Shown: one piece after another, positions 17,178 to 27,725 of the stretch | How the letters are laid out: each line of letters opens with the position of its first letter | Position numbering within the stretch: the stretch's first letter is position 1 | Assembly (NCBI GenBank): GCA_946415265.1 | Contig: CAMKRV010000009.1 | Coordinates: 1-33,979 of the forward strand | Source: an uncultured Candidatus Saccharibacteria bacterium | GTDB lineage: Bacteria; Patescibacteriota; Saccharimonadia; Saccharimonadales; Saccharimonadaceae | DNA: 33,979 nucleotides | Direction of reading: 5' to 3' | Made by a program: the position numbers and the translations under genes | Notes under the pieces: generated by a model | Databases searched by the model: none | The model's input: only the letters and a program-made list of their open reading frames with translations | Told to the model about the DNA's origin: nothing

Positions 17178-17183
17178 TATAAT
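17178..17183 (+). promoter_or_regulatory. Predicted -10 for the HD hydrolase gene
   Basis: TATAAT; predicted start about 17190, just before GGTGGGAG. Confidence 0.6.
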
Positions 17184-17222
17184 ATGGCCAAGGTGGGAGT
17201 ATTTTTACAGGGAGGTGTTTAT

Positions 17223-17912
17223 ATGATTGACTTTGAGACTATGAAAAACCTGAGAGAAAAACGCGACAAAGTCAAGAAAAACGACACTCATGATATGACC
17301 GTTTTTCTTAGAGGCTTTTGCAGCGACAAGCACAATCCCAAGCCAGAAACTTTACGCGCTCTTGGATACGCGCGTAAAAAACACCAGAACCAATTTAGAG
17401 ACAATGGTGAACCTTACATAGTTCATCCTCTCTCTATGGCCTGCTTCGCTATCGGACTCGGACTCACAGACGACAATCTGCTTGCCGTCATCCTACTGCA
17501 TGACATTTGCGAAGACACCGGTACCGCAGTCAGCGATTTACCCAACAACGAAATCGTCAAGCATGGGGTCAAGTATATGACCATTCAAAAATTGCCGAGC
17601 GACGAAGATAAAGCCGAAACCAAAAGACGCTATTATTGGTCATTATTGGAGGATAAAAACGCTCTTATCTGTAAGGCTTTAGACCGCTATTCCAATCTCA
17701 ACGATATGCTCGGAGTCTTCGAACCCGAACGTATCATTAAGAATGTCCGCGAAACACACAACTTGCTACTGCCGGTTCTAAAACAAGCCAGAGATATATA
17801 CCCCGAATATACCAACGAAATCCATATCCTACGCAAGATTCTTCGCAATCTAAATAATAATCTTGCAATTGTATTCGGAGTAGATCTTTACGCCGAACAG
17901 GACAACCAATAA
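17223..17912 (+). CDS. Stand-alone RelA/SpoT-type HD hydrolase (small alarmone hydrolase-like)
   Basis: ARKKHQNQFRDNGEPYIVHPLSMACFAIGLGLTDDNLLAVILLHDICEDTG, no synthetase domain; SD GGGAGGTG ahead of ATG 17223. Confidence 0.85.
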   Translation: MIDFETMKNLREKRDKVKKNDTHDMTVFLRGFCSDKHNPKPETLRALGYARKKHQNQFRDNGEPYIVHPLSMACFAIGLGLTDDNLLAVILLHDICEDTGTAVSDLPNNEIVKHGVKYMTIQKLPSDEDKAETKRRYYWSLLEDKNALICKALDRYSNLNDMLGVFEPERIIKNVRETHNLLLPVLKQARDIYPEYTNEIHILRKILRNLNNNLAIVFGVDLYAEQDNQ

Positions 17913-17929
17913 TCACATCTCCCACCCAA

Positions 17930-17958
17930 AATCCCGACCATTTCGGCCGGGATTTTTT
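17930..17958. terminator. Bidirectional-type terminator hairpin
   Basis: AATCCCG ... CGGGATT TTTT, A-tract on the other side. Confidence 0.75.
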
Positions 17959-19957: not shown

Positions 19958-21559
19958 ATGGGCCACAAAGTAAAACAATCATTAATGAGTAGTAGAATAG
20001 ATTTCTTCTACTATGCTTTCCGTAATGTATTGTTAGTTTCTGTTCCTCTTCTCGTTATCTCTACCTTTGTCCTTGGTTTCAGTGTTTCTCATAGTTCCGC
20101 TACAAACTCTGGGTCAGACAATCTAGCTATTACTATCTCATCATCTTGTACTTTATCTAGTGTAGTTAATGTTCCTCATAATGCAGAAGTATATAACGGT
20201 AACTATTTAGGGGATATAGGAAAGACTACCATTACTACACTATGTAATGATGGTAATGGGTATAGTGTATATGCAATGGGATATAGTAATAATGAAGAAG
20301 GTAATAATAAACTTATTAACTCTGAAAGACCTGAATACAGTATAGATACAGGATTAGATACTAGTGGATTAACATCTGCTTGGGCTATGAAGTTAAACAA
20401 TATACCAGATGATCCTTCTCCTACTCCTCCTACCATAGAAAGTGACTATAATAATACATATGGTATAGTACCATCATATTGGACTAAGGTAGCAGGAAGA
20501 CAATCTGGTACTACAGATATGGCTGAGGGGTCTAGTTTTACTACTACTTATGCCGTATATGCATCATCTAGTCAGTATGCTGGGACGTATGTAGGGCAAG
20601 TTAAATATGCTTTACTCCATCCATACAAAAACGAAAACATGTTGACTATTGAAGACGCCTTTGCCTTATCCGGGAAAAATAAAATCAATATATCTGGCGT
20701 TGGTGAATATTATGCTATGCAAGATATGAGTCCCAATATCTGTAATGCAGCTAGAATTACAAATGAAATATCACAAACGCAATTAGTAGATATTAGAGAC
20801 AATAAACTATATTGGGTAGCAAAATTGGACGATGGACATTGTTGGATGACGCAAAACTTAGATTTTAATATAGAAGCTAATACTGTACTTGATTCCAATA
20901 CTACAGACCTAAATGTAGCTTACGACTCTAGTACTGGACAATATGCAGAATATAATGATGGGTATACAGAAAGTAATGGAGTAATATACTATGTTCCAGC
21001 CAGTAGCGCTAATACTATAGACTTTACTGACACTACTGTTTCTGGTTGGCAGAATAGTAATACTACACCATATACTGCTAATAAAACAGATAGTACAAAA
21101 ACAGGACATGCTTCACTGGGTAATTACTATAACTGGTCTGCAGCTATAGCTAGTAATAACTCTTCTTCATTAACACAAGATACATTAAGTGATATATCTA
21201 ATAATCCTAAGAACTCTATTTGTCCTAAAGGATGGAGACTACCTACTATATCCAACCAATCTGAAGCATCACCCGGTTCTACCAATGAGTTTGCGAGGTT
21301 GAATTATCTATATAACGGCGGTAAAACGAGTGGGTTGGATGGTCTATTGTCGTCTCCATTGTATATTGTGGGCGTAGGAGCGATATCGGGAAGCAGCCAT
21401 AGTTGGGGCATGTATGAAGCTGGCTATTATTGGACCAGCACGGACTATAATGTTAGTAATACTTGGTACTTTCATTTTAATGCGGGCGGATCAATTTTAC
21501 CAAAATATAACGGTCGACCCAAAGCGGATGGTTTCTCTCTCCGCTGCGTCACCCATTAA
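19958..21559 (+). CDS. Surface protein with C-terminal FISUMP (Fib_succ_major-like) domain
   Basis: N-terminal TM segment; DGHCWMTQNLDF ... NSICPKGWRLPT ... YYWTSTDYN...GFSLRCV. Confidence 0.85.
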   Translation: MGHKVKQSLMSSRIDFFYYAFRNVLLVSVPLLVISTFVLGFSVSHSSATNSGSDNLAITISSSCTLSSVVNVPHNAEVYNGNYLGDIGKTTITTLCNDGNGYSVYAMGYSNNEEGNNKLINSERPEYSIDTGLDTSGLTSAWAMKLNNIPDDPSPTPPTIESDYNNTYGIVPSYWTKVAGRQSGTTDMAEGSSFTTTYAVYASSSQYAGTYVGQVKYALLHPYKNENMLTIEDAFALSGKNKINISGVGEYYAMQDMSPNICNAARITNEISQTQLVDIRDNKLYWVAKLDDGHCWMTQNLDFNIEANTVLDSNTTDLNVAYDSSTGQYAEYNDGYTESNGVIYYVPASSANTIDFTDTTVSGWQNSNTTPYTANKTDSTKTGHASLGNYYNWSAAIASNNSSSLTQDTLSDISNNPKNSICPKGWRLPTISNQSEASPGSTNEFARLNYLYNGGKTSGLDGLLSSPLYIVGVGAISGSSHSWGMYEAGYYWTSTDYNVSNTWYFHFNAGGSILPKYNGRPKADGFSLRCVTH

Positions 21560-22226: not shown

Positions 22227-23177
22227 CTATATTTGCATTAATTCAGCCGTATCCAAATTGTAATCGCTCATCGCTATTTTTTGAATAGCTGGGTTTTCGT
22301 AGGTATTATAGTAATAGGTTTTGGCCGTGGCAGAATACCCACCAGTATAAATAGTAAGCTCACACTTGCCGTCACCCATCTGTGCCGCACCATCAATCAT
22401 CGCAACGCCCGCAAGAGTATGAAACAAGCGCGATACATTCTCTTCTTCAGTGCCCTTTACCGGATAATGAGTATTAAGATAAGCCGCTCGTACAAAACGT
22501 GATGGAGAATAATAATCACCCGGCAACCCCTGCATCAACGACCCAGTACCAAAAGCCGTCATTTTGGCTTTACCCCACCGCACTTCTTTTGGCATTTGCG
22601 AAAAGAGATTCATGTAGTTGCGCAAGTTTTCTTTGTGCCAACCATAGCCCGGCTGATTAGTGAGAATATCTACGTCGTTTTCAAAAATCTCCATCCCATT
22701 TGCAGTATATTCCACTACAATAGAGCGCTTTGCATCACCAATCATATAGTGTAATTCCGACACAGGGTACTGGTCATTTATCGGCTGTGCCACAATCGCA
22801 GTATTTTTTAAAGCAGCCTCCACTTCGTCTACCGTTTTAAAATTCATCACAATCCATAGCGGGAACTCGTAGGCCGCAACATTTGTTTTGCCATCCACTG
22901 CAGTCTTTTCATAAACAGCGTAGCCCGGAAAATTTAATCCTGCAATCGCAAGACCAGCTTCATTAGCGCAATCAAAATACAGCGGTTTATCATCGGCCAC
23001 TACCGCCATCCCGATAATCGCACCATTTTTTGGCGCCATTTCGCCCAAAAACGCCGAATTATATTTGTATCCACGTGGTGTAATTACTACCTTCTCACCA
23101 TAGCCCGTAGCCCAATCCAAATTCCGCCCAAAATACATCCCGCCATCCGCACTATTAAACCTCACTCCTGTACACAT
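22227..23177 (-). CDS. Choloylglycine hydrolase-family Ntn amidase (bile salt hydrolase/penicillin V acylase-like)
   Basis: MCTGVRF (Cys2), YFGRNLDW, NEAGLAIAGLNFPGYAVY, DILTNQPGYGWH, LPGDYYSPSRFVRAAY. Confidence 0.93.
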   Translation of the reverse strand: MCTGVRFNSADGGMYFGRNLDWATGYGEKVVITPRGYKYNSAFLGEMAPKNGAIIGMAVVADDKPLYFDCANEAGLAIAGLNFPGYAVYEKTAVDGKTNVAAYEFPLWIVMNFKTVDEVEAALKNTAIVAQPINDQYPVSELHYMIGDAKRSIVVEYTANGMEIFENDVDILTNQPGYGWHKENLRNYMNLFSQMPKEVRWGKAKMTAFGTGSLMQGLPGDYYSPSRFVRAAYLNTHYPVKGTEEENVSRLFHTLAGVAMIDGAAQMGDGKCELTIYTGGYSATAKTYYYNTYENPAIQKIAMSDYNLDTAELMQI

Positions 23178-23201
23178 TTTACCTCCCTTTCGTTTTAAAT
23201 A

Positions 23202-24512
23202 TTAAACTTCTATTACATTTATATCATAAGCGGGATGGTTTTGGTAGCGCTCCGTACCATATTCTTGCTCCATATAGTCGTACCGCGCACTCAGCCACTG
23301 CAACATCTTTTTGATATCTGTTACATAGCCATCTTTTTCCCATTTTTCACTATCCCGCATTGCCGCATCATATATCCGTGCCGCCTGCGTAAATACGTAC
23401 CATAAAAGTTCATCTTTTCGGCCCGCCAACCTATCATTAAATACTCTATCCACTTCCGCCCTAAATTCCGGAATATCAATCAACCTGGCAAATAATCGCG
23501 ACCACTGCAAATACTGCTCGTCTGGCGGCAAATATTCTGTTTCTATCGCCGGAGTAAACAGCCATACAGGGGCATTATTTTGTCCCCGCCGATAATTATT
23601 CAGCGATATATCAAAATCCCACGCTGGCCCAGCATGAATTTTATCATCCAGCCCATCTTTATAAAAATATTGGCTGGTAAAATACGCATCCGTATTGACA
23701 ACCAGCTCTTCAACTAAATAATATTCCGCAAAAGATTTTACGTCTATCAGTTCTCTTATTGTGTCATAATCATGATTTTTAATAGCCTCTTCTAGAGCAT
23801 TAAAATTCGCTACAAAATCTTCCATCGCCGTAGCTGTATTATCTTCATTAACCGCGTCTTTTACGGTCAAATGTTCACCATTACCCGTCACATAGTATAA
23901 TTCTTCCGCCTGTCCATATACATTGTCTAGCTCCACAAGTACCCCATACGGATCCCTCAAATCTACCGCATTCTTACCAACTTCTATCCCACGCGTTAAA
24001 TAATACAGCCCTTGATATTCATCATCTACACTTAACTCCACAAAATCCCCATAGTAGGCATATTTCTCCCCCACCATCTTCTCAATATAAAACGCTGTAT
24101 CCGTCCGTAGATTCGTCCAATCCATGTAGTTAGCTAGTAATATCCATTTTTTGCGCGACCCCAATCCCAATAAATCCACTTTTTGCCTAAATTTTATCTG
24201 CAAAGGTTTTTTAATTTGCGCCCAAGTCGCGTTTCCGCGTCCCTTTATTTCCACATCTTCATATACTTCTTCCTTATCGCCATCCGTTACCGTCACATTA
24301 TTCCCTAGATATTTAATCTCTTTACCATTTTCATAAATCTCCTCAAGAGTAACACCATTCAGGTCTATTTCCATGCGCGGAATTTCATTATTTACCGTTA
24401 GAGTAGGTTTTTGCGGAACATTAATCTGTGCCAATATTACACCAATTAAAATTACAAATACGGCAGCAAAAAACAGTGTAACAAAAACACCTTTATGCTC
24501 TCGCTTTCGCAT
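23202..24512 (-). CDS. CotH-family protein, membrane anchored
   Basis: N-terminal TM; EIKGRGNATWAQIKKPLQIKF, KKWILLANYMDWTNLRTDTAFYI, GLYYLTRGIEVGKNAVDL, GPAWDFDISLNN. Confidence 0.88.
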   Translation of the reverse strand: MRKREHKGVFVTLFFAAVFVILIGVILAQINVPQKPTLTVNNEIPRMEIDLNGVTLEEIYENGKEIKYLGNNVTVTDGDKEEVYEDVEIKGRGNATWAQIKKPLQIKFRQKVDLLGLGSRKKWILLANYMDWTNLRTDTAFYIEKMVGEKYAYYGDFVELSVDDEYQGLYYLTRGIEVGKNAVDLRDPYGVLVELDNVYGQAEELYYVTGNGEHLTVKDAVNEDNTATAMEDFVANFNALEEAIKNHDYDTIRELIDVKSFAEYYLVEELVVNTDAYFTSQYFYKDGLDDKIHAGPAWDFDISLNNYRRGQNNAPVWLFTPAIETEYLPPDEQYLQWSRLFARLIDIPEFRAEVDRVFNDRLAGRKDELLWYVFTQAARIYDAAMRDSEKWEKDGYVTDIKKMLQWLSARYDYMEQEYGTERYQNHPAYDINVIEV

Positions 24513-25214: not shown

Positions 25215-25271
25215 ATGGTTAAATCATATTCAGGTAAAATTTTCTCCCTAGACACGTTCCCTGGTATCTCT

Positions 25272-25277
25272 TATAAT
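25272..25277 (+). promoter_or_regulatory. Predicted -10 for the second HD-type gene
   Basis: TATAAT; predicted start about 25284, just before GGGTGGAG. Confidence 0.6.
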
Positions 25278-25317
25278 ACTCTTTAACAGGGTGGAGTACA
25301 TTTACAGGAGGTGCAAA

Positions 25318-26184
25318 ATGGATATTAAAACATACGATTTATTCAACGAGTACGATAACGCCCTAGCAGGAGAAGAAAAAATATCTGGGGGCTCTTTCAA
25401 TGTCCCCACCTGTCCCGCTCAAGAAGTTCTTGGCATTGTTCAACAACTCGAATGCGTAGCTAAATCCAACACGGTATTAAGGTGTTGTAGCACACGCTAC
25501 GGCTCCTTCGACCCCAGTCAAATAGGGCCAGAAACAGTAGCAGCTCACACCAATCTATTGCAAGTAATTGTAGACCGAGTGTTAGCATATTACTACGGCC
25601 CGCTTTTCACTGCAACTCACGACGGCAACTTTACCTACCGAGAGATCATGGAAGTAATCAGGCGTCACGACTTACCCGAAAATGTCATCGGCGACATCGC
25701 CGACAACGGTAACCGCGACGACGTCAACCTGCGCCATATCGAGCAGTCTTATCTTTACAACTTCGCCAAAGCGTCTCCCAGACGCGACGTCAATTCCGAG
25801 GAGAAAATCCGCTTGCTCCAGTACAATATGGATAATCAGCTCGGTTTTACCGGCCAGCTTCTCTACGCAGCAGATAAGATGTCGGCGATTTTCGCCACAC
25901 TCGAATACGATTGCAATGGCGCTTCGCCCACCATGTCTACCGCCTTTACGGGCGCATCAAGGAAAGAAGCTAAAGCTATGGAGCTCTGCGAATTCTATTC
26001 CACATCCGGTCAAGATAAAATTTGTCGCGCCAGCGAAATGTGGACTATTGATTACTTCAAGTTCCGCAAGTTGTATCAGTACGACAGCACCGGCCTCATT
26101 ACCGCAATACTGATCATGAAAAGCATCATCACTAACGGCAAATGGTACTCTTGGCGTAAAGCAGACTACGCAAAAGTTCAATAA
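25318..26184 (+). CDS. HD-domain phosphohydrolase-like protein
   Basis: AAHTNLLQVIVDRVL ... IRRHDLPE ... LLYAADKMSAIF; SD GGAGGTG ahead of ATG 25318. Confidence 0.65.
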   Translation: MDIKTYDLFNEYDNALAGEEKISGGSFNVPTCPAQEVLGIVQQLECVAKSNTVLRCCSTRYGSFDPSQIGPETVAAHTNLLQVIVDRVLAYYYGPLFTATHDGNFTYREIMEVIRRHDLPENVIGDIADNGNRDDVNLRHIEQSYLYNFAKASPRRDVNSEEKIRLLQYNMDNQLGFTGQLLYAADKMSAIFATLEYDCNGASPTMSTAFTGASRKEAKAMELCEFYSTSGQDKICRASEMWTIDYFKFRKLYQYDSTGLITAILIMKSIITNGKWYSWRKADYAKVQ

Positions 26185-26200
26185 CCACCTCCACCCCCTT

Positions 26201-26233
26201 AAAGCCTCGAGATTTTTACATTTCGGGGCTTTT
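26201..26233 (+). terminator. Rho-independent terminator
   Basis: AAAGCCTCGA gatttttaca TTTCGGGGCTTTTT. Confidence 0.75.
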
Positions 26234-26284
26234 TCCTGCTTTTACATCGCCTTTTCATGCTATAATCAAAAAAACGGAGGCAAA

Positions 26285-27250
26285 ATGAGCAAATTCGACG
26301 ACCAATATATAGACCTTTGCCGGCGTATTTTAGACCACGGCGAAAAAATCACCAATTACAAGAAATCTGACGCTCGTAGTGCCACCACAGCTACCGCCAT
26401 CCCAGACCATACCGCTCAAGGCTCATCCGAAGCTCGCACTATCCGCCTACCACATCAAGTTTTGCAATTTGATTTATCCGAAGAATTCCCAATTCTAGTT
26501 TCTAAAAAAGTCGGGTTCAAGACCGCCACTTTAGAGTTGCTTTGGATTTACCAGGTCGCTTCCAACGATGTTCGTTGGCTACAAGAACGCAACGTCAAAA
26601 TCTGGAACGAATGGGAAATCGCCGAAGACGGCACCTATCAAGGACGAAATATCAACGACATCTATGCCAAATCTCACCCTACCGAACCTAAAGAAAATTT
26701 TGCCCACACCATCGGCACTGCCTATGGCTGGATTGTTAATCGCTATCATCTAATTGACAATTTGATCGAAACCCTCAAAAAGACCCCCGGTAACCGTCGT
26801 ATGGTACTTTCTCTCTGGCAAAACGAATGGCTACCTACCGCCGCTTTACCTTCTTGCGTCTGGAATTCGCAATGGAACTTAATAGACGGCAGGCTTAATT
26901 TACTAGTCACTTCTCGTTCTACCGATGTGCCGCTTGGACTGCCCTTCAATATTGCCCAGTACGCAGTACTTTGCCACCTGGTAGCCCAATGTATCGGCGC
27001 CCAGCCTGGTCAATTCACCTTTATCACTAATGATGCACATATCTACGAGAACCAAATCGATGGCATCCGCGAGCAAATCGCCCGTTACGACAAAGCAGTA
27101 GAAGATGGCACCCTACCACCAGCACCTAAGCTTTGGATTAATCCAGAAATTACCGATTTCCATAAATTTGACAATTCCCGCGAGCTCAAAGATATCCGCC
27201 TAGAAAATTACGAAAACCTCGGCACCATCAAGATGCCAGTTACGGAGTAA
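26285..27250 (+). CDS. thyA: Thymidylate synthase
   Basis: IGTAYGW, ALPSCVWNSQWNLIDGRLNLLVTSRSTDVPLGLPFNIAQYAVL. Confidence 0.96.
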   Translation: MSKFDDQYIDLCRRILDHGEKITNYKKSDARSATTATAIPDHTAQGSSEARTIRLPHQVLQFDLSEEFPILVSKKVGFKTATLELLWIYQVASNDVRWLQERNVKIWNEWEIAEDGTYQGRNINDIYAKSHPTEPKENFAHTIGTAYGWIVNRYHLIDNLIETLKKTPGNRRMVLSLWQNEWLPTAALPSCVWNSQWNLIDGRLNLLVTSRSTDVPLGLPFNIAQYAVLCHLVAQCIGAQPGQFTFITNDAHIYENQIDGIREQIARYDKAVEDGTLPPAPKLWINPEITDFHKFDNSRELKDIRLENYENLGTIKMPVTE

Positions 27251-27251
27251 A

Positions 27252-27725
27252 ATGTTTAGTATTATTGCAGCTATCGGCAAAAACAAGGAACTAGGTAAAA
27301 ATGGCGATCTAGTTTTTCATATCAAAGAAGATATGAAATATTTTCGCGACACCACCAAGGGCCATAAAATCATCATGGGCCACAAAACTTGGGATAGTCT
27401 GCCCGGCAAACTTCCTAATCGCGAAAACATCGTCATTTCCAGAAACCCAGTAGAAGGCGCCGACCTTACCGTCACAAATCTTAGTGAATATATAGAGCAA
27501 AATAAAGATACTGCCGAAGAAATTTTTGTAATTGGTGGCGGTATGGTATATTTTGAATTTATGAATTATGCCAAAAATCTCTATCTCACCGAGATTGACG
27601 CCACTATTTCCGATGCTGACACCTTTTTTCCCGAATTTGATAAAACTAAGTACCACAAAACTATAATTAAGAAAGGATCAGAAGATGATCTAACCTACAC
27701 TTTCGTGAAGTACGTTAAAATCTGA
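27252..27725 (+). CDS. folA: Dihydrofolate reductase
   Basis: SIIAAIGKNKELGKNGDLVFHIKEDMKYFRDTTKGHKIIMGHKTWDSLP; VIGGGMVYFEFM. Confidence 0.95.
   Translation: MFSIIAAIGKNKELGKNGDLVFHIKEDMKYFRDTTKGHKIIMGHKTWDSLPGKLPNRENIVISRNPVEGADLTVTNLSEYIEQNKDTAEEIFVIGGGMVYFEFMNYAKNLYLTEIDATISDADTFFPEFDKTKYHKTIIKKGSEDDLTYTFVKYVKI

Follow-up and report, generated by a model that had tools for sequence, protein, structure and literature searches.

When a gene for an HD-domain protein in an uncultured Saccharibacteria genome carries, close to its predicted transcription start, eight nucleotides that are perfectly complementary to eight nucleotides just past its stop codon, the question arises whether the two ends of its mRNA pair with each other and what such a pairing would do to the message. 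Gene regulation in these very small, host-dependent bacteria has been little studied. The stretch of DNA analyzed here (the window; 33,979 nucleotides) corresponds to contig 9 of a genome of 0.77 Mb, and the relatives used for comparison belong mostly to the same genus. In four genomes of the same order, the 16S rRNA genes bear TM7-type signatures known from published primers (three of three signatures in three genomes, two of three in the remaining one), which makes a saccharibacterial affiliation very probable. The HD1 and HD2 features given below are on the plus strand.

The gene in question, HD2 (25318–26184), encodes a 288-aa HD_3/YfbR-like HD-domain protein, which family profiles place in the HD_3/YfbR/HDDC2-like group and which is probably a nucleotide phosphohydrolase. 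A promoter was recognized upstream of it, consisting of TAGACA (25249–25254), a 17-nt spacer, and TATAAT (25272–25277), from which transcription was predicted to start at approximately 25284–25285, about 4–5 nt upstream of the 5′ block GGGTGGAG. The leader contains the 5′ block (25289–25296), a box GTACATTTA (25296–25304) located between the helix and the Shine–Dalgarno (SD) sequence, and the SD sequence GGAGGTG itself (25307–25313). Behind the ORF, the heptamer CACCTCC (26186–26192) is complementary to GGAGGTG and overlaps the 3′ block CTCCACCC (26189–26196), which forms the other arm of the end helix and is directly followed by a predicted intrinsic terminator (AGCCTCGA ... TCGGGGCT and a T-run; 26203–26234). 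The two blocks, the heptamer, and the SD sequence were all found exactly where the original prediction had placed them. CACCTCC also lies right after the stop codon as claimed, but not at a distance of 2 nt, as the TAA occupies 26182–26184 and a single base separates the two.

Taken by itself, the 8-bp match between the 5′ and 3′ ends of HD2 in the window is weak evidence. When the 5′ and 3′ regions were shuffled between genes, a duplex of HD2 grade was reached in approximately 11 of 754 genes (~1.5%), that is, mispaired genes attain its score at this rate.

The window contains a second gene with the same arrangement. HD1 (17223–17912) encodes a 229-aa protein with a stand-alone HD_4 domain resembling the hydrolase domain of SpoT; from its family alone, it was assigned a putative SpoT-type (ppGpp hydrolase-like) function. 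The claim that the two genes are both of HD type and yet distinct was thus borne out (HD_4/SpoT-hydrolase-like versus HD_3/YfbR-like). Upstream of HD1, a −10 box TATAAT (17178–17183) follows TGT, as in an extended −10 element, and no clear −35 box was seen. The leader (17192–17217) has the same layout as that of HD2, with the 5′ block GGTGGGAG (17192–17199), the box GTATTTTTA (17199–17207), and the SD sequence GGGAGGTG (17210–17217), and its 5′ block forms a self-consistent pair of its own with the 3′ block CTCCCACC (17919–17926). Compared with the HD2 pair, GGTGGGAG/CTCCCACC represents a compensated change. The overlapping segment ACATCTCCC (17915–17923) pairs with the SD region GGGAGGTGT over 9 bp, including one G-U, and a predicted terminator follows at 17929–17958.

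Some neighboring genes may be recorded here. Directly downstream of HD2 come thyA, which encodes thymidylate synthase, and a gene for dihydrofolate reductase (25318–27725). Between HD1 and HD2, a protein of the choloylglycine-hydrolase family adjoins one of the CotH-kinase family on the minus strand (22227–24512), and a 533-aa protein (19958–21559) shows a sub-threshold match to the Fib_succ_major domain.

To the question of whether the end pairing extends beyond the window, the homologues gave a clear answer. HD2 homologues were present in 36 of 150 relatives, all within the window's genus, and in 21 of 21 non-redundant loci the leader block pairs with a stop-adjacent block over 6–12 bp (median 8), although one locus (L045) required a search region extending further into the ORF, and some of the helices are short and score below certain swapped pairs. 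For HD1, the 5′ end of the RNA pairs with a stop-adjacent block in 15 of 20 homologues. When own pairs were compared with pairs swapped between loci, the observed energy was reached in none of 20,000 permutations for HD2 and in one of 20,000 for HD1. The original prediction was staked on further instances in close relatives, and the pairing does recur there in the homologues of both genes, conserved and covarying.

The 5′ and 3′ blocks of HD2 vary in step across homologues. Leader boxes were placed by eye, blind to the pairing, and the helix columns anchored on them contained several pair types each, with a maximum of five. The block sequences differ between loci, so that complementarity is all they have in common, and in nearly all HD1 and HD2 loci the blocks are G-rich. 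In most loci, the −10 box of a promoter immediately precedes the 5′ arm, and the 3′ arm is near the stop codon and terminator; the 3′ block of HD1 and HD2 is mostly directly upstream of the terminator and usually 0–15 nt from the stop codon, and in L042, L045, L082, L165, and L177 the 3′ arm lies inside the last codons or across the stop codon. Thus, as judged from the swap tests and the column pair types, the ends show the above-chance, conserved complementarity that characterizes mRNAs with base-paired 5′ and 3′ UTRs, such as icaR and hbs (see below). We consider it very probable on these comparative grounds that the element is a conserved RNA pairing of mRNA ends. Since the matching end sequences change together in evolution, the mRNA probably closes into a loop. 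In three HD1 homologues (L083, L086, and L088), inspection by eye suggests that a local hairpin in the 5′ leader replaces the 5′–3′ helix.

Pairing ends were also found in genes unrelated to HD1 and HD2. A family of 132-aa proteins with no confident assignment in Pfam or NCBIfam, present in 4 of 150 genomes (L138–L141), carries the ends AGGATTATTC/GAATAATCCT, of which GAATAATCCT includes the TAA stop; the stop codon lies within the 3′ arm of this family or next to it. Because the four loci are nearly identical in sequence, this family cannot contribute covariation evidence of its own. In an accessory ClpP-like family, part of the loci have pairing ends (L143, L160, L177, L195, L199, and L202), and the family-wide swap test was weak (p = 0.02 and 0.13). 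AU-rich helices that do not compete for the SD sequence are found in the 132-aa family and in several of the ClpP-like loci. The ClpP-like protease paralogue (L143, L160, and L176–L205) occurs alongside the canonical ClpP in many genomes of the genus.

Whole-genome scans were made for two genomes. In G024, 8 leaders reached a score of at least 22, where the controls averaged 3.0; the corresponding figures for G145 were 9 and 3.45. Genes with the full geometry, which were picked afterwards by their terminator and stop-codon geometry, numbered approximately five in G024 and three in G145. Two of those in G024 are orphans (L252 and L253; 169 and 197 aa) with pairing ends, and homologues of them were absent from 119 other genomes. 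End pairing is therefore gene-specific, and the notion that it is a general trait of all mRNAs in these genomes was rejected. A search of the window and six related loci against Rfam at the gathering score returned tRNAs only, so that a known RNA family or riboswitch class was rejected as well.

The box between the 5′ block and the SD sequence follows the consensus NNCWTTWA. Combined with the SD sequence, as GTACATTAAAAGGAGG, it was counted at 88 sites, which fall in 66 of the 170 genomes of the genus (permuted control, 3), and in other genera it was nearly absent, with 2 sites among 182 genomes. It stands upstream of many unrelated genes, for example at around 1501–1516 in L142–L171. The idea that HD1 and HD2 share ‘the same leader’ is thus correct for the box and the SD sequence, but the paired blocks are variable and the box also precedes many other genes. 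Since the majority of the box-bearing genes show neither end pairing nor an adjacent hairpin, the box and the end helix are separable. We also considered that the box always follows a 5′ hairpin, and rejected this because only 2 of 27 box-bearing leaders had a significant adjacent hairpin; the box is accordingly a separate leader motif. Nor could it be explained as an extended match to 16S rRNA: past AAAGGAGG, there was no fit to the ACCTCCTTTCTAG tail, which is that of relatives in the order, no 16S gene having been found for the genus of the window.

The original prediction had further described the heptamer overlapping the 3′ block as an mRNA-encoded anti-SD-like sequence that mimics the 16S anti-SD core. 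In swap tests, the SD regions of HD2 loci matched their own 3′ block better than those of other loci (p = 0.00065 by energy), whereas the result for HD1 was marginal (p = 0.07 by energy and 0.03 by score). These values should be read against the fact that C/U-rich 3′ blocks, being the partners of G-rich 5′ blocks, pair with any SD sequence to some degree. A 3′ anti-SD element of the icaR type, complementary to the SD sequence of the same mRNA, was found in HD2, marginally in HD1, and not in the 132-aa family.

Whole-mRNA partition functions were calculated, and the 5′ block was knocked out by substitution with A. In the intact ensembles, the end helix exceeded a probability of 0.5 in 14 of 21 HD2, 12 of 15 HD1, and 4 of 4 loci of the 132-aa family. 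The model results showed that replacing the 5′ block raised the pairing between the SD sequence and the 3′ block from 0.18 to 0.81 in HD2 and from 0.07 to 0.61 in HD1, and left it unchanged in the 132-aa family. In the window itself, the HD1 ensemble favored the helix state (0.97), and that of HD2 favored the SD-paired state (0.87 versus 0.20 for the end helix). The proposal thus holds to the extent that the anti-SD match is locus-specific in HD2 and, in the models, vies with the end helix, but it does not extend to the 132-aa family; SD competition is for this reason not general. End pairing does define a class of several genes in a single genus, whereas a ligand-sensing switch or a shared regulon signal would go beyond these results.

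What the computations show is how the ends are arranged, that the arms of the end helix covary, and that competition for the SD sequence is predicted. These results suggest a scheme in which a long-range helix would join the very start of a monocistronic mRNA to a block located at the stop codon or shortly behind it, beside the terminator, and so close the mRNA into a loop. The helix would probably serve to cap both ends and so slow decay, while the ribosome-binding site would stay exposed behind the short leader box. In HD1 and HD2, where the 3′ block could double as an anti-SD sequence, an intact 5′ block would hold the 3′ block and leave the SD sequence free; if the 5′ end were lost or unpaired, the 3′ block would seize the SD sequence and translation would be shut. 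We infer that the helix may form in cells and protect the mRNA, and that its loss may turn translation off.

How do these observations compare with other explanations? Chance, that is, short complementary words in GC-skewed ends, is compatible with the single HD2 locus of the window, whose score ~1.5% of mispaired genes also reach. The swap tests refute it for HD2 and HD1 as families, and the same geometry recurs in further gene families, which leaves chance a negligible probability. Covariation could in principle also stem from inverted repeats in the DNA, bordering a mobile or exchangeable cassette or serving as protein-binding sites. Several carrier genes are accessory or orphan, as this would lead one to expect, and G-U and A-C mismatches were equally common in a symmetric count, a measure that does not separate RNA from DNA repeats. 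However, neither the shared repeat nor the variable genomic position of a mobile cassette was found: the blocks differ between loci and are merely complementary, and, where the flanks of HD2 homologues were read, most of them keep the start of thyA behind the gene. Moreover, the promoter and the terminator lie outside the repeats, as would be expected of a structure formed by transcript ends. Since the blocks are located between promoter and terminator and share no repeat sequence, RNA is favored, and we regard an origin at the DNA level as very improbable.

Two further explanations accept the RNA pairing and differ in its effect. The full-length mRNA might be mainly off, folded back so that the 3′ anti-SD sequence covers the SD sequence, with 3′ trimming or some other event activating it, in the manner of the hok and AapA mRNAs, and the 5′ block acting as a modulator. 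The ensemble of window HD2 described above agrees with this, as does that of L037 (0.96), and in L037, L047, and L057 the complementarity to both partners runs past the SD core. Yet most homologues favor the end helix with the SD sequence not paired to the 3′ block, the strongest covariation of the 3′ block is with the 5′ block and not with the SD sequence, and a toxin-like small peptide is not evident, the products being enzymes of 229–288 aa; we therefore think that such inhibition is improbable as the main function. Alternatively, the helix might do nothing but shield the ends from ribonucleases, an effect reported for hbs, and the anti-SD match would be a by-product of G-rich 5′ blocks. 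The AU-rich helices of the 132-aa family and the ClpP-like loci would fit, and so would the local hairpins that seem to substitute for the helix in some HD1 homologues, but this does not account for the locus-specific fit of the HD2 SD regions (p = 0.00065) or for the G-richness of nearly all HD1 and HD2 blocks, and pure protection appears to us a rather doubtful, if reasonable, account.

We thus prefer the reading in which the paired ends close the mRNA. That this closure affects stability or translation seems to us somewhat probable; that HD1 and HD2 are in addition switched through their SD sequences is a tentative proposal drawn from the folding models, for which we would give slightly less than even chances. 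Still bolder, and in our view rather unlikely, is the proposition that closed-loop mRNAs operate genus-wide with the intact 5′ terminus as an anti-anti-SD element, so that only 5′-complete mRNAs would be translated and loss of the first nucleotides would at once expose the end and silence the message. HD1 and HD2 both code for hydrolases of the HD type, so nucleotide metabolism in these host-dependent bacteria may be what the element tunes. Within one Saccharibacteria genus, unrelated genes share this architecture, and in two of the families covariation supports it.

We found no description of this end-pairing element of Saccharibacteria in the open-access literature; the bacterial 5′–3′ mRNA pairings covered by one review are single cases (PMC7821165). 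In the icaR mRNA of Staphylococcus aureus, a UCCCC motif of the 3′ UTR pairs with the SD sequence of the same mRNA and can block initiation (PMC3868564), and S. epidermidis lacks the motif (PMC7821165). The likeness lies in a C/U-rich 3′ element complementary to the mRNA's own SD sequence. The icaR 3′ UTR is, however, longer than 100 nt, whereas the Saccharibacteria block is usually 0–15 nt from the stop codon, has a competing and covarying partner at the 5′ end, and recurs in unrelated genes. The hbs mRNA of Bacillus subtilis similarly has its 5′ UTR paired with its 3′ UTR, over 14 nt, which has been reported to protect against cleavage by RNase Y (PMC7821165). It is a single gene for which a competing anti-SD sequence is not described, whereas the present elements form a covarying multi-gene class in which protection is inferred.

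The type I toxin mRNAs hok and AapA, which encode small toxins controlled by antisense RNA, have a 5′–3′ long-distance interaction and are activated by 3′ trimming (PMC6733600). Both systems share closure of the full-length mRNA by its ends, an anti-SD sequence close to the 3′ terminus, and alternative structures, but the products here are HD enzymes and the closed form leaves the SD sequence free in most models. A type I toxin mRNA was accordingly rejected, as the genes encode HD-domain proteins of 229–288 aa. Finally, a 5′–3′ interaction is known in RNAIII of S. aureus (PMC7821165), which resembles the present case in the long-range pairing of the ends of a translated RNA and differs in being a single multifunctional regulatory RNA.
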